This document shows positions 36,441 to 46,086 of a stretch of 64,000 bases of DNA, one piece after another (position 1 is the stretch's first letter; each line of letters opens with the position of its first letter). Both the position numbers and the translations under genes were made by a program. The notes under the pieces were generated by a model. The model saw nothing but the letters and a program-made list of their open reading frames with translations. It did not search any database and was not told where the DNA came from. Source of the DNA: Xylanibacter ruminicola Ga6B6 (lineage in GTDB: Bacteria > Bacteroidota > Bacteroidia > Bacteroidales > Bacteroidaceae); the NCBI RefSeq assembly GCF_000687715.1, contig NZ_JHXD01000006.1:62001-126000 (forward strand), given 5' to 3'.

Positions 36441-36466
36441 AAGCCCTCGCTCAATGGCGAGGGCTT
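36441..36466. terminator. bidirectional terminator between nhaD and the kinase array
   Basis: AAGCCCTCGC/GCGAGGGCTT stem with a 6-nt loop, followed by TATTGTTTTTATTT on the plus strand and AATAATTT on the minus strand. Confidence 0.85.
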
Positions 36467-36474
36467 TATTGTTT

Positions 36475-39219
36475 TTATTTCCTTGGTATCCACATCCAGA
36501 AGGTAGAACCATGACCTTCACCTTCTGAGTCAACACCAATCTTTCCTTCGCATCGTTCGGCGATAGCCTTACAGATACTCAATCCTAAACCTGTACCCTG
36601 TACAAAGTCGTTCAGCTTTACAAAACGTTCAAACACGGCAGCCTGCTTATCCTTGGGGATACCAGCACCCGTATCCTCGCAGTAGAAGTAGATGCCACCA
36701 TCCTGCTCGCGATAGCCCACCTTGATGTGTCCCTCGTGGGTGTACTTGATGGCGTTGGTAGTAAAGTTGGTAAGTACCTGTTGTATGCGACCCTTATCGA
36801 GCGTGGCAGGGAAGGTGTCGTATGGATTATCCTTAATGAACTGTACGCCTGCCTCATCTACACGCTGTGCCAATGTCTGACAGATGTCGTCGAATACCTT
36901 GGCAAAGTCAACCTGCTCGGGTTGGATGGCCAGTGCCTGACCCACATTCGAGGCTTCGAGGATATCGTTGATGAGTCGCATCAGCATGTCGCAGTTGTTG
37001 CGGATAATGCGGATAAACTCCATACGCTCGCTATGTTCCTCAACCACAGGCAACAGATCGCTGAATCCCACAATGGCATTCAGAGGCGTACGTATCTCAT
37101 GGGTCATATTAGCCAGGAAGGCGGCCTTCATCTTACCTGATTCCTCAGCGCGCAGAGTCTCGTCCTTCAGCTTCTGCTGAGCTTCCATCAGGGTGTCGAT
37201 GTTACGAGCCACACCAAAATACTGATATACCTTTCCATTCTCATCGAAACTGGGAATACCGCTGATGGCATACCATACAGGATTAGGGTTGATAACGGTG
37301 TGCTTGAAGTGGATGGTCTGGTTGTATGGCTTAGCCAGAGCAATGGTTGCCATTGCATCCTTGAGCGCAGTTGCACTAAACTCATCAGTAACGCCACCAT
37401 AGAATTCATCCAAAGTCTTGGTGTAGTCGGTTTTGCGACCACTATAGCTGAAGTGGATGAGTCCCTCTTTCAAGTCGAATGTCCAAACAAACATCTTACA
37501 GGTTTCAAGCAGATAACCCAGTTGGTTCTCGTAGGTCTTGATATCTTCGGTGGCTTTACGAATCTCGGTATCGTGCCTATGCTGTTCCAGATATAGGTGT
37601 CGTTCGGCAGTCATATCGCGGGCCGTTACCACGTAGAACTGCATCTCGCCATTCTCATCGAATGTTGGGCGTACCTTAATCTCGATATACTTGTAGATGC
37701 CAATCTCGGGATAGAACATGCGCTGACAAACGTGGAAGTTCTCTTTGTCGCCTTTGTGGTACAGACCTTTTACCAGGGGAACTTCGAACAGGTTCATCTG
37801 GCGGAAGAACTCCTCGCCATCCTTGTCAAACTCGCAGAGGTCGGCCATACGACGGTTCACGTCAATCAGTTTACCATCCTTGTCATAGAACGACATGGCT
37901 ATCAAGCCATATTCGAACATGTTCTGGTATTTGCTGGCTATCTCTTCGTTCATGCGCTCCTCTTGTACCTCGTTGGTGTAATCCCTGAACGAGGTAATGA
38001 TGTAACGTGGCTTGTCTTCGTCGTATTCTACTACGGCATGTCCCTCAATCCAATGCCAGTCGGGCTTTTCTATCGTTCCTCTGTTATAACGACGCTTCAG
38101 ATAGCCCAGATCCTTATGACCTTGACTCATCAAGCGCATGGCTTCGCTGAATTTACCCTTCTCTTCTTCGGGGAGGCGTTCCATAAACACGGCGTGACTC
38201 ATACCTTCTTCGGGTAGCATATCGCCATATCTGTTTTTCAACCATTGTGTCTGGATGTCGAACTCTATCACATAGTATTTACCTGAACTCAGTGCTTTCT
38301 GCATCATCTCGTTCAGGTCAACCGATTTCTCAACAGCCTTTCGAACGCGGGTACGCATCATCTGACTGAACAGCAGGAAGATGATGGCTGCTGCGATGAT
38401 GCCAACCAGCAGAATGAGTGCCATGGGCGAGGCATCGTTGTGTACATTCTCGGGATGGAACCACCTGTCGTATATCCTCTCGACATCGCCCGATTGCTCC
38501 ATACGTGCAAATGTGTCGTCGATAGCATGAATCAGCTCCTTATCGTAGCCGATGATACGCAACTCGCCAGCAGGGATATCGGTCTCGTCAAACTCAATGC
38601 CATCAATGTTCAGCTCCTTAACCTTCATCATCAGTGGCTGTTCGCCCCACATGTAGTACTTGTACTTGCCACTTCGGATACCCATCAGGGCCTCGCGGGG
38701 TGAATGGTACTCAACCTTAAAGGCCTTGCTTCTCTGTTCATTTATCTTCAAGTCTACATAGTCGTTTTTCTTCACTGTCAGTGTATCGTCCTTAGTAAGC
38801 TGACTGATGCGTCGGAGTGGACGGGTACCCTTCAGTCGTACAGCCCTTACATTATAATAGGTAATCATGTTCTGGGTGTACTCGAATGGGGGACGGTCGT
38901 ATTTAAACTTCAGACAGTGGATAAGGTCGGCCTCGTGCCTGTCGAAAGTCTCTGTACACTGGTACCACTCTTTCATGATGAACTTGTGCGGAATACCCAG
39001 TTTGTCTAATATCAAGTTCAATACCTCAACATTGTAGCCATCAGGTTCACCCATGTCGTTTCTGAACTCATAAGGCGGGAACTCCCAGTCGCTCACAATA
39101 ATCAGCGGTTTTTCGGTGGTGTATTCACGTATATATTTGGCCGCAGCTTGCTGTACGTGGCACAAGGCAAGCAAACTGGTAATAGCAAGTATGAATATCT
39201 TTTTTGTCATGATCATCAA
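36475..39219 (-). CDS. sensor histidine kinase A with periplasmic solute-binding domain
   Basis: This 914-residue membrane kinase is last in the four-gene operon (9 bp after kinase B). Order of parts: signal/anchor helix (about 6-27), periplasmic SBP_bac_3-like domain (about 35-255, with IIVSDWEFPPYEF and EPDGYNVEVLNLILDKLGIPH), membrane helix (about 266-286), PAS-like regions (about 310-410, 430-570, 590-680), HisKA with phosphoacceptor His707 in NMTHEIRTPLNAIVGFSDLL, and a complete HATPase_c (NAIKYT N-box, CEDTGAGI, GTGLGLSICK). No receiver or DNA-binding domain is fused. The ligand would be a small periplasmic solute; its nature is unknown. C-terminal half is strongly similar to kinase A' (42003-43985). 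Confidence 0.93.
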   Translation of the reverse strand: MMIMTKKIFILAITSLLALCHVQQAAAKYIREYTTEKPLIIVSDWEFPPYEFRNDMGEPDGYNVEVLNLILDKLGIPHKFIMKEWYQCTETFDRHEADLIHCLKFKYDRPPFEYTQNMITYYNVRAVRLKGTRPLRRISQLTKDDTLTVKKNDYVDLKINEQRSKAFKVEYHSPREALMGIRSGKYKYYMWGEQPLMMKVKELNIDGIEFDETDIPAGELRIIGYDKELIHAIDDTFARMEQSGDVERIYDRWFHPENVHNDASPMALILLVGIIAAAIIFLLFSQMMRTRVRKAVEKSVDLNEMMQKALSSGKYYVIEFDIQTQWLKNRYGDMLPEEGMSHAVFMERLPEEEKGKFSEAMRLMSQGHKDLGYLKRRYNRGTIEKPDWHWIEGHAVVEYDEDKPRYIITSFRDYTNEVQEERMNEEIASKYQNMFEYGLIAMSFYDKDGKLIDVNRRMADLCEFDKDGEEFFRQMNLFEVPLVKGLYHKGDKENFHVCQRMFYPEIGIYKYIEIKVRPTFDENGEMQFYVVTARDMTAERHLYLEQHRHDTEIRKATEDIKTYENQLGYLLETCKMFVWTFDLKEGLIHFSYSGRKTDYTKTLDEFYGGVTDEFSATALKDAMATIALAKPYNQTIHFKHTVINPNPVWYAISGIPSFDENGKVYQYFGVARNIDTLMEAQQKLKDETLRAEESGKMKAAFLANMTHEIRTPLNAIVGFSDLLPVVEEHSERMEFIRIIRNNCDMLMRLINDILEASNVGQALAIQPEQVDFAKVFDDICQTLAQRVDEAGVQFIKDNPYDTFPATLDKGRIQQVLTNFTTNAIKYTHEGHIKVGYREQDGGIYFYCEDTGAGIPKDKQAAVFERFVKLNDFVQGTGLGLSICKAIAERCEGKIGVDSEGEGHGSTFWMWIPRK

Positions 39220-39228
39220 GTTTCGGAT

Positions 39229-42006
39229 TTAACAACGTTCCATTTCTATCAGCTTACAAGGTATCGAGAACCATACCATGGTGCCCTTGCCTTCGGTAGA
39301 TTTAAGCTCTATCTGTCCGCCCATATACTCTACCAACTCATGGCAGATACTGAGACCAAGGCCTGCGCCATTGTTGGCACCAGTTACAAATCGGTCGAAA
39401 ATGTGTTCGATGTCCTCTTGCTTAATGCCACATCCGGTATCTTCTACCGATACAATCAGTCGGTCGGCAATAAACTCGTAGCGTGCCAATACCGAGCCCG
39501 AGGTGGTATGTTGTATGGCGTTGGTAAGTATCTTGTTAAGAATCATCGATACATTGGGTTCGTCAATCTCTACTATTAGACGTTTAAACGGATTCTGTGC
39601 CGTATATTCTACGCCGGGCTTCCTGTGGTTGTCCCATACAGATGAACAGCGTCCCTCGAAAATGCTGGCCAGGTCGATGGGCTGGGGCGAGATGGTGATC
39701 ATGCCGGCATCTAGTCGCGACAGGAACAGAATGTCGTTGATCAGTTTGAGCAGCGAGGCCGAGTTCTCCTTAATCTCATTGATAAATACAGCCTCGTCTT
39801 CAGGCGAGTGATCCATCTGAAACAGCTCGGAGAATCCTACAACTGTATTCAATGGCGTACGTATTTCGTGGCTCATGTTGTGCAGGAAGGCGTTCTTTAC
39901 CGTCTCTACCTCCTGAGCACGAACCGACTCCAATGCCAATTTCTCCTCTACGGCCTTGATGTCGCTGATGTCACGAATCAGTCCGAAGTATTCCACTATC
40001 TGTCCATCCTTGTAGGTGGGCACAAAGTTAAACTGCAGGTGCAGAGTAACGTGGTCCTTGCGTCTGATGCAAGTCTTGATTTCTGCTCGCAGACTGCCAG
40101 GTTGCTTGTTATCCATCTTGTTCAGTATGCGTAGTGCCTGTTTCTCCGATGATGGAGCGATGAATGCCAATGCTCTGGTTTGGGTTAGCGAGTATTTCTC
40201 GTGGTTAATCTCGCTGAACACGGTTAACGTATGCGTGTCGAGGTGATACTTGGCCAGACTGATACCTCCTACTGCCAGCACATAGTCGATGTTACGCACA
40301 TAGTTGGTAACCTCGTCCTGAATCTCTTGCAGTTCGTTGGTGTTCTCCTGTAGTTGTCGGTACGAGTGGGCTACCTCGGTAACATTACGTCCAGAACCGA
40401 AGAAACCGATACGCTTACCATCCTTATCGCGGATAGGCATTACCTGCAACTCGTAGTATAGCTTGTCGCGTTTCAACAGATTGTTCAGTGTACGCCCATC
40501 GTCAGGTCCGTAAAATATCTGTGTGGCATAGAAGATTTCTAAGTCGTCGAGATCCAAATCTTCTATACCCAGCACATCGGATAGCGTGATGTGCTGTTTT
40601 TTGATTGTTTCTATGTCAACTCCTACTACAGCAAGTGATTTGGAGTTCATATCGGTGATATAACCATCGGCATCATAGTACACCATATCAACCATGGCCG
40701 AGTTAAACAGCGACTGATAACGCAGCATCGACTCCTTAATGAGCTGTTGGCGCATGCGCTCCTGGGTGGTATCGGTCTTCGAACAGATAATAACTGATGG
40801 CTTCTTGTGTTTGTCGCGTCGCAATACCGACAGGGTAGCCGTGTAGTTGTTGCTATGAATCAGGTCGTTCTCGTATTCCTTGAGCTGCAAGGTAAAGGTA
40901 GGAACTTTCTCCTCGATAACCAGGCGCAAGGCTTCGGTAAGTTGCGTAAAGTCGTTAGGGTCGAATCGGTGTGAGAATTCCAGCAGTGAATAGTTGCGCT
41001 CGGGGTAGCCGGCCGAATCCATCATCACAAAGAACTGTGAGGCAACATCGTAAGTACAGAACTTTACGTTACTGGTACGCATTACCAACGACAGACGTTC
41101 ATTTTCCTTCAAGATTTTCTTTGTTATCTGGTGTTCGCGAATCTTGAAGAAGGCGTAGTACATGATAACGGCCAAAGCCAGAATGGCAAAGAACTTGATC
41201 CAATCCCAGATCCATGATGGGATACCCGATTCCTGGCGCTCTGGGTAGAACCACTTGTTCTGGATAGCTGTCAACTGGTCGTTGGCGCGCAGTTTCGAGT
41301 AAACGCTATCCAGTTGCGCCAGCAGGTGATGGTCGTTGGCAAAGAACTTATACTCGCCATAGGGAAAGTCGAAAGGTGTGAGCTCCAGGTTATCGGTATG
41401 GTATTTCATCATCAGCCACTTCAGCGACACAGAGTTCCAAAGTATCACACCTTTATTTTCAGAACTTACTGTCTGTATGGCCTCTTTCATGTCGTCGAAT
41501 GGGATGATTTCCTTGGCCCATCCGTTATCAATCAGTTTATGGTGACTGAAACTGCCCTCATGCACAATGATAGAGTAGTCGGTAAGGTCTTTTCCTGCCT
41601 TGGCATGGATAGCCTGACTTTTAGGAGTTACCAGACTATGGGTGAATATCTGCACAATGGTTTTGCCGTAGGATGAGTTGTTGCGGGCAAAGTCGGCATC
41701 CATTCTCAGCATCAGGTCCGACTTATGGTCTTTCAGGTCTTTTTGGGCTTCCAGAGTTGGACGTAGTCTGATAACATATGGAATGTCGAGTTCTTTGAAA
41801 ATCATCTTCAAAAGGTCGATATTATAGCCGTCAGGTTCGCCGTTCTCGTTCAGGAATACATAGGGCCACAGGTCCCAGGCATCCTCATACACCAACGGTC
41901 GCTGATCATTGTAAACAATGATGCTGTCTTTCTGAGCGTATGCGGTGCCAAATGACAGGTGGCAGGCTAAAAGTAGTACAAATATTCTAAATCTATTCAT
42001 AATCAT
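39229..42006 (-). CDS. sensor histidine kinase B with periplasmic solute-binding domain
   Basis: The 925-residue kinase starts at an ATG that overlaps the stop of the upstream kinase A' (ATGA), so its start is secure. Parts: signal/anchor (about 6-25), SBP_bac_3-like domain (about 30-255, with EPDGYNIDLLKMIFKELDIPY), membrane helix (about 268-288), PAS-like domains, HisKA with His713 in NMSHEIRTPLNTVVGFSELF, and intact HATPase_c (TNAIQHT, VEDTGCGI, GAGLGLSICH). It is the paralogue of kinase B' (43987-46023): both share the linker REHQITKK-type sequence after the helix and a characteristic NEIKEN-type stretch after the H-box. No receiver domain. Confidence 0.93.
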   Translation of the reverse strand: MIMNRFRIFVLLLACHLSFGTAYAQKDSIIVYNDQRPLVYEDAWDLWPYVFLNENGEPDGYNIDLLKMIFKELDIPYVIRLRPTLEAQKDLKDHKSDLMLRMDADFARNNSSYGKTIVQIFTHSLVTPKSQAIHAKAGKDLTDYSIIVHEGSFSHHKLIDNGWAKEIIPFDDMKEAIQTVSSENKGVILWNSVSLKWLMMKYHTDNLELTPFDFPYGEYKFFANDHHLLAQLDSVYSKLRANDQLTAIQNKWFYPERQESGIPSWIWDWIKFFAILALAVIMYYAFFKIREHQITKKILKENERLSLVMRTSNVKFCTYDVASQFFVMMDSAGYPERNYSLLEFSHRFDPNDFTQLTEALRLVIEEKVPTFTLQLKEYENDLIHSNNYTATLSVLRRDKHKKPSVIICSKTDTTQERMRQQLIKESMLRYQSLFNSAMVDMVYYDADGYITDMNSKSLAVVGVDIETIKKQHITLSDVLGIEDLDLDDLEIFYATQIFYGPDDGRTLNNLLKRDKLYYELQVMPIRDKDGKRIGFFGSGRNVTEVAHSYRQLQENTNELQEIQDEVTNYVRNIDYVLAVGGISLAKYHLDTHTLTVFSEINHEKYSLTQTRALAFIAPSSEKQALRILNKMDNKQPGSLRAEIKTCIRRKDHVTLHLQFNFVPTYKDGQIVEYFGLIRDISDIKAVEEKLALESVRAQEVETVKNAFLHNMSHEIRTPLNTVVGFSELFQMDHSPEDEAVFINEIKENSASLLKLINDILFLSRLDAGMITISPQPIDLASIFEGRCSSVWDNHRKPGVEYTAQNPFKRLIVEIDEPNVSMILNKILTNAIQHTTSGSVLARYEFIADRLIVSVEDTGCGIKQEDIEHIFDRFVTGANNGAGLGLSICHELVEYMGGQIELKSTEGKGTMVWFSIPCKLIEMERC

Positions 42007-43985
42007 TCAGTAATTTCTTGTTTACATGGAATCCATACCCAGAAGGTAGAGCCACAATCCTTGCCTTCGGATGTAACGCCAATCTCACCACCGCTGTTGT
42101 CGGCAATAAGCTTGCAGATGCTCAGGCCCAGACCTGTGCCCTGTACAAAATCATTCAGCTTTACAAAGCGGTCGAACACTTTTCCCTGGTGCTCCTTGGG
42201 TATGCCTGCGCCGGTATCTTCGCAGTAGATGTACAAGCCTTCCTTGTCCTGTCGCTTCTGCTGCTCATAACCAATCTTTATATGTCCCTGTTGGGTATAT
42301 TTGATGGCGTTGGTAACAAAGTTGGTTACTATCTGTTGGGTACGTCCGCCATCAATGGTTGTGATATAGGTGGGGTAGGGACTCTCTACCAGGAATTCTA
42401 TCTTGGGGTTCTTGATGCGCTGTGCCAACGAGGTGGCTACGCTGTTAAAGCACTTGGCAAAGTCGGTTCTGGTGGGCTTGACGATGATGTCGCCACTCTC
42501 TAACGATGAGAGTGCCAGAATATCGTTTACCAGACGTAACAGCATGTCGCAGTTGTTGGATATTACTTGTATGATACCCTCTCGCTCTTCGGGTGTGCTC
42601 ATGGTTGCCAATACATCCGAGAAACCTACGATGGCATTCAGTGGGGTGCGTATCTCATGACTCATGCTGGCCAGGAAGGTACTCTTGCGCATTCCCGACT
42701 GATTGGCGCGTTCGGTTTCTTCCTTCAACTGCTCCTGCTTGTTAATCAAGGCGGTAACATCTCTTATCACACCATAGGTACCCGTCTGCTTGCCGTTCTC
42801 ATCATAGTATGGAATGCTATCGATAAAGGTCCACTCCAGTTCATCGCTGTCGTGGAACAACGGATGCATATGGGTCAAGGTCGACTTAGGCTCGTTAAAG
42901 AACTCGTAGGGATGGCGTAATCCTTCGGCAAACGGATCGTCGATAAAGTGGGTAATGAGTTCGTCGAAACCCATTTTGCTTTCTATCACGCTCATCTCGC
43001 GATATAAGGTTACCTCGCGTTTCTCGAACGAGGTGCGGAAAAAGTGCATGTCAACATTCTCCATCAGGTATTTCAACTCTGTCTCGTACTGCTCGATGGC
43101 CTGGTTGGTACGTTGCAGCGATGCTTCGTTCTCCTTGTCCTGTTGGTATAGCTTGCGTTCCTGGGTAACATCTCGCATATACAGTGTGAAGAACTCCAAT
43201 TGGTGGTCTTCATTGAGAATGGGGTGTATCCTGATTTCTGAATAACAGTTCACGCCACGCTCATACATCACTGTCTTGGTGCAGAAGTAGAGGTCGTCGG
43301 TAAGATTCTTCCGTAGGATATAACGGAAGGTTGGCAACTCAAACAAACTGTAGCGATGATAGAATGGGTCGTCTTCCGACTTAAACTTCAGTATCTCGCG
43401 CAACTTCTGGTTGGCTGTCAGCAGATGACCATCCTTGTCGTAGAAGGCTTGACCAACGATACTCTGCTCAAACAGTTTGCGGTAGCGGTCGGTTAGTTCG
43501 CGCTCTTCTTTCTCGGTCAGTATCTGTTCGGTCTTGTCGTTCAGCGTACAGTAAAAGTTGATGGGCGTTTTCTTGTCAGTCTGGTCGTATTCCACTACAC
43601 CCACATCGTGTATATAGCGCCAGTCGTTTTCGTGCTTATCCAGACTTCTGTCCCATCTGAAAATACATTCCGACGATTCGGCTCCTTTTACCAGTCGGAT
43701 CATGAATTCGGCGTAGAGATGGCGGTCGTCGGGATGTATGTATTCCAGACTCTGTTCGTAAGTCATGCCGTTGGCTGGCAGGAAATCGCCATACAGGTTA
43801 TAGGCCAGGTGGTTTTGCAGATTCAATCGGAGCACGTAGTTGTTATCGTTCAGCGTGCGTTGCATGATGGTAGCCATATCTTTGGCTCTCCAGGTATTCT
43901 TTCGAATGCTGTAGAGTGTAATGCGGTTCAATATCACACCAATGATAATCACCACCAGGGTTAATATAACTATCAGTATCTGCAT
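42003..43985 (-). CDS. sensor histidine kinase A', no periplasmic sensor
   Basis: The 660-residue kinase has one N-terminal membrane helix (about 3-22) and no periplasmic domain. It then has three PAS-like regions, the first with YGDFLPANGMTYEQSLEYIHPDD, paralleling YGDMLPEEGMSHAVFMERLPEE of kinase A, and QAFYDKDGHLLTANQKLREIL. HisKA carries His443 in SMSHEIRTPLNAIVGFSDVL and HATPase_c is intact (NAIKYT, CEDTGAGI, KLNDFVQGTGLGLSICK, the last almost identical to kinase A). It is separated by 1 bp from kinase B' and overlaps kinase B by 4 bp. It could only sense cytoplasmic or membrane signals unless it pairs with a neighbour. Confidence 0.92.
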   Translation of the reverse strand: MQILIVILTLVVIIIGVILNRITLYSIRKNTWRAKDMATIMQRTLNDNNYVLRLNLQNHLAYNLYGDFLPANGMTYEQSLEYIHPDDRHLYAEFMIRLVKGAESSECIFRWDRSLDKHENDWRYIHDVGVVEYDQTDKKTPINFYCTLNDKTEQILTEKEERELTDRYRKLFEQSIVGQAFYDKDGHLLTANQKLREILKFKSEDDPFYHRYSLFELPTFRYILRKNLTDDLYFCTKTVMYERGVNCYSEIRIHPILNEDHQLEFFTLYMRDVTQERKLYQQDKENEASLQRTNQAIEQYETELKYLMENVDMHFFRTSFEKREVTLYREMSVIESKMGFDELITHFIDDPFAEGLRHPYEFFNEPKSTLTHMHPLFHDSDELEWTFIDSIPYYDENGKQTGTYGVIRDVTALINKQEQLKEETERANQSGMRKSTFLASMSHEIRTPLNAIVGFSDVLATMSTPEEREGIIQVISNNCDMLLRLVNDILALSSLESGDIIVKPTRTDFAKCFNSVATSLAQRIKNPKIEFLVESPYPTYITTIDGGRTQQIVTNFVTNAIKYTQQGHIKIGYEQQKRQDKEGLYIYCEDTGAGIPKEHQGKVFDRFVKLNDFVQGTGLGLSICKLIADNSGGEIGVTSEGKDCGSTFWVWIPCKQEITE

Positions 43986-43986
43986 A

Positions 43987-46023
43987 CTATATCACAATTT
44001 TTCTTTCAAAGTCAATCATCTCGCAAGGCAGGGCGATAAAGAACGAACTACCCTTGTCGGGTTCCGACAGCACGTCGATGGTGCCGCCCATCTGTTCTAT
44101 CATCTCTTTCACGATAGGCAGATCCAATCCTGTGCCAATGCGTTTGTTCTTGCCATCGCTCACAAAGCGGTCGAACATCTTGGTGGCATCTTCCAGATCC
44201 ATACCGCCATCAGTACTGTCAACAATCACAATCAGCTCGTCGTGCAGGTATTCGTATCTTGATTTAATGAGTCCCTCGTTGCTGCTCAAACCTACATAGT
44301 TGCACAACTTCTCGATGGCGATGCCCAAGTTGTGCTTATCAATTTTTACACGAAGCGATATATATGAGTTGTTGATAATCTTTCTAGCATCATTGCTTGT
44401 CTCGCTCCAACCATGCTGGCACCAACTGTCGAATAATGTGGCAAAATCGTGTACCTCGTAGTTGTATTCTATCATGTGGGCATCCAAGCGTGATATGAAT
44501 AGGATATCGTTGATCAGGTTCAGCAGCACATCTGTGTTCTTCTTGATTTCGTTGGCAAATATCGGTTCGTCTTCCAAGCTGTGTTCTGTCTTAAATAGGT
44601 CGGCAAAACCAATCACTGCGTGTAAGGGCACTCGCAGCTCATAGCTCATGTTCAGCAGGAAGGCGTTCTTCAGCTGCTCCTCTTCCTGGGCTTTGGCTGT
44701 TTCTTCCTGCAGTCGCATTTCAGTGTACGACATCTCTGTGTCGTTTCGCAGCAGACCGAAGTAGTGCGTTACTATGCCGTCGTGGTTGGTGATGGGCATC
44801 AGGTTGAAGTTCAAGTAGATGTCGCGTCCCTGCTTGTCGGTCAGTTTGGTATGCAGCGTTTCTGATATCGTACCTAAACGCCGTCTGTCCATATGCAGAA
44901 TCAAGTGCTTGGCTTTGTAACGGTCGTCGCTATGTATCAGCTCCACTGCATGTAGCTGTGCTATACGTTTACCTGTTTCGCTCAAGTCGCTCAGAATTTC
45001 CAGCTCATGGGTGTCGGGGTAATAGTTTACCAAACGAGCCTCGCTAATTCTCAGCGAGTAGTTAATGTCTCTGATGTATTGCTGTATCTCTTTGGTACGC
45101 TTCTCAATCAGTCTGCTGGCTTCTTTCTGCTTGTGGGTCGATTCTACCATCTCGGTAATGTCTCTACCTGCAGCAATCACACCATAAAGCTGGTTGTCCT
45201 CATTGCGGATAGGCCCTAACATCACCTCGTAGTATATCTTGCCTTGGCGTGTTACCTCAGGTACACGCTCGTCAGTAGCCTTTGTCTGACTGATATCTGT
45301 AATCGACGATAGTTGGGTGTGTTCAATGGTGCGCACGTCCATCTCTCTGTACGATGGTATATCGGTCATCTTCATCTGGCGGTCCAGTAAGGCTTGTGGG
45401 TCTTTCACACCAAATGTCTCGCAGGCTTTATCGTTCATGTCAGCCAGATAGCCATCTGCATTGTAGTAAATCATGTCAACCAACGACGAGTTAAACACCG
45501 TGTGGTATCTTAGCATCAGTTTTCGGGTATCCTCAGCCATTTGCTGCTCCAGAGTTACGTCGCGCTGGGTACCTAAAATCTCGCTTGGAATGTCGTGGCG
45601 ATTCCTGTGCAGTACCGAGAGGGTTATCTCGTAGCATTTCACTAATCCGTCTTTGTTGGGTGCACTTTTCACGGTTAGCGTGTCCGATAGGGTATCTCTG
45701 TTCTGTATGCTTGTAATGGCTTTCTGTATCTTTTTAAAGTCATCGCGGTCGTAAAGCTGTGAAAAGTCGAAAGGTGTATAGAGTGTTTCGGTCAGATCCT
45801 GTTTCGATATAACCTTAAACATATTCTTCTTGGTATGATAGGTCCAGGCGTCGGTTTTGTTGGCATCCATAATCAGTGTCAGTTGCATATTCAGCCGCTG
45901 TACTTTTCTGGTTATTTTGCGTTCGCGGTAGTAGATGAGACGATTGTATACTACCATGCCAATAACGGATATCAAGAAAACCGTTATCAGATAAATATAT
46001 ATATGATTGCTGTATATAAGCAT
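43987..46023 (-). CDS. degenerate sensor kinase B' (predicted pseudokinase), no periplasmic sensor
   Basis: The 678-residue protein is first in the operon. It has a single N-terminal helix (about 9-26), PAS-like domains and the dimerisation/catalytic region of a histidine kinase. The H-box reads NMSYELRVPLHAVIGFADLF: the phosphoacceptor His is Tyr461 (codon TAT at 44643-44641). In the ATPase domain, G1 is VDSTDGGM (Ser603 where Asp is required, Asp605 for Gly) and G2 is GTGLDL (Asp634 for Gly). The F-box FDRFV and overall length are kept and the frame is intact, so it looks maintained rather than decaying. It probably acts as a dimer partner, scaffold or sensor rather than an active kinase. 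Confidence 0.9.
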   Translation of the reverse strand: MLIYSNHIYIYLITVFLISVIGMVVYNRLIYYRERKITRKVQRLNMQLTLIMDANKTDAWTYHTKKNMFKVISKQDLTETLYTPFDFSQLYDRDDFKKIQKAITSIQNRDTLSDTLTVKSAPNKDGLVKCYEITLSVLHRNRHDIPSEILGTQRDVTLEQQMAEDTRKLMLRYHTVFNSSLVDMIYYNADGYLADMNDKACETFGVKDPQALLDRQMKMTDIPSYREMDVRTIEHTQLSSITDISQTKATDERVPEVTRQGKIYYEVMLGPIRNEDNQLYGVIAAGRDITEMVESTHKQKEASRLIEKRTKEIQQYIRDINYSLRISEARLVNYYPDTHELEILSDLSETGKRIAQLHAVELIHSDDRYKAKHLILHMDRRRLGTISETLHTKLTDKQGRDIYLNFNLMPITNHDGIVTHYFGLLRNDTEMSYTEMRLQEETAKAQEEEQLKNAFLLNMSYELRVPLHAVIGFADLFKTEHSLEDEPIFANEIKKNTDVLLNLINDILFISRLDAHMIEYNYEVHDFATLFDSWCQHGWSETSNDARKIINNSYISLRVKIDKHNLGIAIEKLCNYVGLSSNEGLIKSRYEYLHDELIVIVDSTDGGMDLEDATKMFDRFVSDGKNKRIGTGLDLPIVKEMIEQMGGTIDVLSEPDKGSSFFIALPCEMIDFERKIVI

Positions 46024-46055: not shown

Positions 46056-46086
46056 CAAAGATAGCTGATTTTGCGCAAATAACAAA
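46056..46086 (-). promoter_or_regulatory. promoter of the four-kinase operon
   Basis: Minus-strand TTTG (46086-46083), 19-nt spacer, TATCTTTG (46063-46056), 33 bp before the first kinase. The divergent frr promoter lies 27 bp away. Confidence 0.8.

Follow-up and report, generated by a model that had tools for sequence, protein, structure and literature searches.

Tandem pairs of two histidine kinase types in Xylanibacter ruminicola Ga6B6: a putative heteromeric sensor module

The window analyzed in this work (the whole stretch of 64,000 nucleotides from contig NZ_JHXD01000006.1 of Xylanibacter ruminicola Ga6B6) carries four complete histidine kinase genes on its minus strand, arranged in the order B'-A'-B-A and encoding proteins of 678, 660, 925, and 914 aa, respectively (Table 1). 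The junctions between these genes, given in the sequence-only reading of this DNA as 1 bp (B'/A'), a 4-bp overlap (A'/B), and 9 bp (B/A), were recovered from the ORF coordinates, and the shared sequence strings listed there are present in the translations of the four kinases. The gene of A starts with TTG, which is immediately followed by ATG. Upstream of B', a possible promoter was found, which presumably fits the Bacteroidetes promoter consensus, and a terminator-like hairpin lies behind the last gene, although the scan detected 6 such sites versus 8.4 in shuffled sequences, i.e., no excess. The promoter-like stretch together with the hairpin fits a four-gene operon. The divergent upstream neighbours of the locus are genes which we take to be frr and rsgA, while the convergent downstream neighbour of A presumably encodes an nhaD-type antiporter. 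A second, short B-A pair is located on another contig of the same genome (L073).

Table 1. Features of the B'-A'-B-A locus and of two receiver proteins encoded elsewhere in the genome
Feature	Position	Strand	Description	Basis
B' (678 aa)	43987-46023	minus	one N-terminal TM helix, three PAS-like domains, DHp, degenerate CA	ORF, Pfam, model
A' (660 aa)	42003-43985	minus	without periplasmic domain; His443; N, G1, and G2 boxes intact	ORF, Pfam
B (925 aa)	39229-42006	minus	signal helix, periplasmic SBP_bac_3, TM helix, three PAS-like domains, DHp, CA; His713	ORF, Pfam, model
A (914 aa)	36475-39219	minus	periplasmic SBP_bac_3, PAS-like domains, DHp, CA; His707, boxes intact	ORF, Pfam
Tyr461 codon (TAT) of B'	44641-44643	minus	at the position of the phospho-accepting His	
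Solute-binding domain of B	41242-41889	minus	residues 40-255 (model)	Pfam, model
Solute-binding domain of A	38455-39105	minus	residues 39-255	Pfam
Possible promoter	46056-46086	minus	TTTG, 19 nt, TATCTTTG; 32 bp before the start of B'	
Terminator-like hairpin	36441-36466	both	in the gap separating A from its convergent neighbour downstream	
Stand-alone receiver (118 aa)	G000:C5:82333-82686 = L014:5334-5690			
Soluble kinase-receiver hybrid (417 aa)	G000:C12:63292-64542 = L009:2793-4046			

The Pfam search assigned HisKA and HATPase_c domains, above the curated cut-off, to all four kinases, and SBP_bac_3 exclusively to B and A. No receiver, HPt, or HTH domain was matched in the four proteins, which distinguishes them both from BvgS-type sensors, carrying receiver and HPt domains behind the kinase core, and from the hybrid two-component systems of Bacteroides, in which a kinase, a receiver, and an AraC-type HTH are combined in one chain. 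The His expected of a phospho-accepting HisKA kinase is present in A', B, and A; in B' its place is taken by Tyr461, a feature absent from the sequence-only reading. The other motifs of B' are degenerate as well: the N-box Asn is replaced by Tyr, and the G1 and G2 boxes read DSTDGGM and IGTGLDLPI, respectively. The B protein of the window, unlike most of its type, has both the His and the complete set of kinase motifs, so that the full asymmetry within the window is limited to the B'-A' couple.

Structure models were obtained for B (mean pLDDT 74, pTM 0.33) and B' (mean pLDDT 84, pTM 0.38), and, given these pTM values, they were used for domain limits and fold matches alone. The domains which they showed in B' and B, including the periplasmic domain of B, are given in Table 1. 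The nearest solved relatives of the periplasmic domains are the sensor domain 3h7m and amino-acid binders, with low scores. With 3h7m and BvgS the locus shares a periplasmic solute-binding fold placed on a membrane kinase, in the window in B and A only; BvgS has such binding domains in tandem, whereas here there is one per protein.

The assignment of kinases 1 and 3 to one type and of kinases 2 and 4 to the other was borne out by a tree of the kinase cores, in which all 30 B rows joined in one node (SH-aLRT 100) and all 30 A rows in another (98). The outgroup consisted of the cores of 35 further kinases encoded in this genome, and two additional outgroup rows (L010) were duplicates of family members from L073. 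A grouping of A' with B', named beforehand as an outcome that would speak against the two types, did not occur, since A grouped with A' and B with B'.

Searches with the window's B as the query (E <= 1e-60; at most two matches scored per genome) revealed the module in 129 of the 299 genomes of the genus, and in a sample of the family 11 of 301 genomes, representing 2 of 30 genera, gave a match to the B alignment (E <= 1e-100). Among the best 80 matches of a separate scan of named organisms, three in Prevotella or Prevotellaceae assemblies (L181-L183) covered the query nearly at full length, two (L184 and L186) covered its C-terminal half, and most of the others covered the kinase core only. 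The detailed mapping comprised 76 sources (the window, L073, L077-L090, and L121-L180), all picked for having hits. The order B'-A'-B-A, with a short pair followed by a long one, was found in 32 of them, including L080, where two additional, truncated genes separate the pairs; such a recurrence shows that the layout is not due to chance. Other layouts were single pairs, some having binding domains and some lacking them, tandem arrays of two long pairs, and arrays of six genes (L080 and L142).

The pairing itself is kept in the homologous loci. An A gene comes next after 115 of the 118 B genes that have a downstream neighbour from the family, nearly always at a distance of 51 bp or less, and the other three junctions are fragments or a fusion. 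Within the mapped sources, B without an adjoining A was seen only at a contig end (L089) or in a chimeric remnant (L090), while in L152 the A gene is present and masked by an antisense frame. The core tree and the recurring layout, together with the paired divergence described below, back the view that a two-gene B-A module has been duplicated. The accompanying claim that the promoter-distal pair alone carries solute-binding domains is correct for the window (Pfam), but it does not extend to the family: several arrays have these domains in both pairs (L147, L160, L163, and L165-L167), so that "distal pair only" is one layout of several. On wider trees, short B proteins are explained by two changes from the long form (one clade and L176/L177). 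Short A proteins call for four changes, namely in one clade (37 rows, support 66%), in L176/L177, in L085, and in L169, the cases of L085 and L169 coinciding with a contig end or a shortened frame. The ancestors of both types seem to have had the solute-binding domain, which would then have disappeared from the upstream copy. The simplest history would be a duplication of a B-A pair equipped with solute-binding domains, followed by their loss from the upstream copy, though a single event is not proven by the trees.

The asymmetry seen in the B'-A' couple is the usual state in the family. In type A, the H-box contains His in 116 of 117 proteins, the exception being the truncated 400-aa protein of L080; in type B, it is replaced by Tyr, Phe, Gln, Asn, or Glu in 99 of 115 proteins and retained in 16. 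Short B proteins (n = 39) have Tyr (33), His (5), or Phe (1), and long ones (n = 76) have Tyr (42), Phe (11), His (11), Gln (10), Asn (1), or Glu (1); pieces of L088 and L126 shorter than 300 aa, one of which (from L126) has His, were left out of this count. The N-box Asn is kept in all 114 readable A proteins, in 69 of the 76 long B proteins, and in 8 of the 39 short ones. For comparison, among the other kinases of the window's genome, His was found in 34 of 35 and the N-box Asn in 35 of 35. Another kinase of this genome, lying outside the A/B family (L072:1422-3356), has Gln at the phospho-His position. All five B proteins inspected from the sister genus (L311-L315) also have Gln at the phosphosite. 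According to the B tree, there were at least seven changes between the His and non-His states. In the 32 four-gene loci, the phosphosites of B' and B were Tyr/Tyr in 14, Tyr/His in 7 (the window included), Tyr/Phe in 6, His/Phe in 3, and Phe/Tyr and Tyr/Gln in one each. His was not present in both B' and B in any of these 32 loci, which at such numbers may be a matter of chance.

In ten pairs of loci, dN/dS (NG86) ranged from 0.046 to 0.229 for B and from 0.053 to 0.223 for A, with several dS values above 1, i.e., near saturation. By this measure, the B genes are under purifying selection, like those of A, rather than decaying.

Paired divergence was analyzed with distance matrices calculated for the last 620 residues of the proteins from the 32 four-gene loci. 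The distances correlated strongly within the couples (r = 0.916 for B'-A' and 0.944 for B-A) and less so across them (0.752 for B'-B, 0.726 for B'-A, 0.731 for A'-B, and 0.705 for A'-A). In L162 and L180 the distal pair belongs to another B lineage, and without these two loci the gap was narrower, with 0.919 for B'-A' and 0.920 for B-A versus 0.805-0.829 for the cross-pairs. In partial correlations for these 30 loci, the couples reached 0.731 (B'-A') and 0.739 (B-A), values attained by none of 500 permutations, compared with 0.076-0.153 for the cross-pairs, of which B'-B (0.153) and A'-B (0.138), small as they are, also lay above nearly all permutations. When the couples were compared with A'-B by bootstrap, the 95% ranges of the difference excluded zero over the whole stretch, while for the kinase core alone one range just included it (-0.001 to 0.194). 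The divergence of B' thus follows that of A', and the divergence of B that of A, more closely than is the case in any cross-pairing. It should be stressed that A' and B are as closely adjacent as B' and A', so that linkage alone does not predict the observed pattern; an exchange of B-A blocks possibly contributes to it.

Histidine kinases are typically homodimers. The shared DHp fold, the co-location, the co-divergence, and the difference in phosphosites lead us to propose, with a probability of about 0.6, that each B-A couple forms a heteromeric sensor with A as the phosphodonor; the heteromer, the direction of phosphotransfer, the ligand, and the output are all inferred. The locus would then comprise two copies of one sensor unit, in which type A, with its phospho-His and ATP site intact, would work with the B protein encoded just upstream, most likely through the homologous DHp helices. 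B would act as a second sensory arm, mostly unable to carry phosphate, that modulates or completes A: the long B, with its ATP-site Asn mostly kept, could phosphorylate the His of A in trans, and the short B', with this Asn mostly lost, would be an allosteric partner. The distal unit might perceive a periplasmic ligand via its two solute-binding domains in addition to cytosolic PAS signals, while the proximal one, having lost these domains, would have to rely on cues from the membrane or the cytosol. From A, phosphate would pass to a receiver whose gene lies elsewhere. The complete motif set of the window's own B, and the His of all 16 type B proteins that retain it, count against this proposal.

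Heteromers of kinases have precedents, although reports of them have been called rare (PMC12675982). The closest worked example is FasB/FasC, likewise the products of neighbouring genes for kinases of two different types, for which a two-hybrid assay gave hetero- but not homodimers and His246 of FasC was a key residue (PMC12675982). As described there, the FasBCAX operon of group A Streptococcus also contains the response regulator gene fasA, whereas no receiver gene is found on the window's contig; moreover, in our case most partner proteins have lost the phosphosite and not the CA domain, the units are stacked two or three times, and the heteromers are a proposal. It is also reported that the kinases RetS/GacS (PMC12189002) and ChrS/HrrS (PMC9491836) can form hetero-oligomers, though ChrS and HrrS each homodimerise too, and a truncated ChrS pseudokinase gave no significant heterodimer signal (PMC9491836). 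In these reports neither RetS/GacS nor ChrS/HrrS is described as an always-adjacent pair, which sets them apart from B-A. The remark of the sequence-only reading that no described system with this layout is known still holds for the literature searched, in which none was found; this is weak evidence, as most subscription papers were outside the search. What makes the family, found in 129 of the 299 genomes of the genus (at most two matches scored per genome), of interest is that one partner of a gene pair mostly lacks its phosphosite, with at least seven changes of state on its tree, and the other has kept it. The natural phosphosite variants (Tyr, Phe, Gln, Asn, Glu, and His) allow one to ask how a pseudokinase functions within a sensor, and the natural duplicates within one operon allow one to ask how partners select each other.

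As to the possible recipients of phosphate, all 25 receiver domains of the genome lie outside the window's contig, on which the genome search found no receiver gene. A stand-alone receiver and a soluble kinase-receiver hybrid (Table 1) were found to follow the module when 150 genomes of the genus were compared: the 118-aa receiver is present in 56 of 65 module carriers versus 4 of 85 other genomes, and the 417-aa hybrid in 58 of 65 versus 3 of 85. In few genomes does the receiver adjoin a TPR-type kinase. A control kinase of another type, which adjoins this receiver in the window's genome, was detected in 43 of the 150 genomes, nearly all of them module carriers. Carriers are also richer in kinases, with a median of 20 HisKA matches (7 in the others), a median HisKA/receiver ratio of 1.2 (0.64 in the others), and kinases outnumbering receivers in 54 of 65 genomes (2 of 85 in the others), as counted from up to 37 kinase and 28 receiver candidates scored per genome and uncorrected for completeness or ancestry. 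The rsgA tree, whose resolution was too low for a count of independent events, offered two supported independent pairs. Since the control kinase and the kinase numbers follow the same genomes, the case for the receiver and the hybrid as specific partners of the module is weakened. It is a fair guess, and no more, that the two proteins form a hub used jointly by kinases that have no regulator gene beside them, and the combination of many kinases with few receivers is a hint of such a phosphorelay hub. A more far-reaching version of our proposal, which we put forward only tentatively, is that of an obligate two-chain kinase in which A alone would carry phosphate, the long B would phosphorylate it in trans, and the short B' would only gate it, with two or three units stacked per operon forming a multi-input sensor that might feed this hub of Prevotella's many kinases lacking adjacent regulators.

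The same receiver is relevant for the strongest competing explanation, namely that B resembles DivL of Caulobacter and is a self-dimerising pseudokinase that reads the phosphorylation of a single-domain receiver and then adjusts how active A is within a larger complex, no A-B dimer being formed. DivL has a kinase fold with several PAS domains, Tyr550 at the position of the phospho-His, and no autokinase activity; it acts on CckA and binds, and thereby reads, phosphorylated DivK (PMC4211667). Tyr occupies this position in the window's B' and in 75 of the 115 B proteins (33 short and 42 long), the DivL core (4q20) matches the models of B' and B with target TM-scores of 0.78 and 0.83, and the stand-alone receiver accompanies the module as given above. 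Nevertheless, the ordinary kinases 4u7n (0.81 and 0.82) and 4zki (0.80 and 0.79) match the two models equally well, and the link of the receiver to B is unspecific, because this protein also follows the general kinase richness. Furthermore, the Asn of the ATP site is present in most long B proteins, whereas DivL is reported to bind an ATP analogue only weakly; and, in contrast to DivL as described in that source (PMC4211667), the residue at the phosphosite varies. In the family studied here, the partner is encoded by the adjoining gene. We consider a DivL-like role of B rather unlikely.

Somewhat less probable still is that the four proteins are separate homodimeric receptors, with B losing its kinase function and serving as a dominant-negative or titrating sensor, and with the pairing produced by operon inheritance and the exchange of B-A blocks. 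This would agree with the DHp and CA domains being complete by Pfam in all four proteins, with the full motifs of the window's distal B, and with the replacement of the distal pair as a block in L162 and L180, but it is at odds with the purifying selection on B, with the lack of comparable co-divergence in the equally adjacent A'-B, and with the restriction of solitary B genes to a contig end and a remnant. A control of a neighbouring AraC-type regulator and rhamnose locus by the module is very improbable, for although a co-directional AraC-type gene (AraC_binding, HTH_18) directly follows A in 28 of the 76 mapped sources (e.g., L128:2780-3649), with what is presumably a rhamnulokinase gene beyond it in several loci, the regulator has no receiver domain by Pfam, occurs in 68 of 150 genomes, remains at the rhamnose-type locus where the module is missing (beside a rhamnulokinase- or antiporter-like gene in the four module-free stretches L319, L320, L322, and L330), and is absent from the window's locus, its genome giving no match at E <= 1e-70.

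Returning to the heteromeric B-A sensor, gene fusions offer no specific support for the B'-A' pairing, as the three in-frame fusions found (L136:6440-11191, 1583 aa; L316:2-4138, 1378 aa, cut by the contig end; and L318:6387-11174, 1595 aa) link A' to B rather than to B'. They would be in keeping with a complex of more than two chains, or with a stop codon having been lost neutrally.

Other irregular genes were noted as well. In L080 (9027-11477), a third B-A couple located between the two pairs is reduced to proteins of 411 and 400 aa, both devoid of a CA domain and of the phosphosite His. In L126 (at about 10-13 kb), B' is split into three frames of 402, 186, and 210 aa, which may be an assembly error, while the other three genes are whole. 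In the sister genus (L311:5308-9300), B is divided into two pieces, one periplasmic (309 aa) and one with the kinase (688 aa), and A is represented by a 371-aa periplasmic remnant, behind which lies an unassigned frame of 550 aa.
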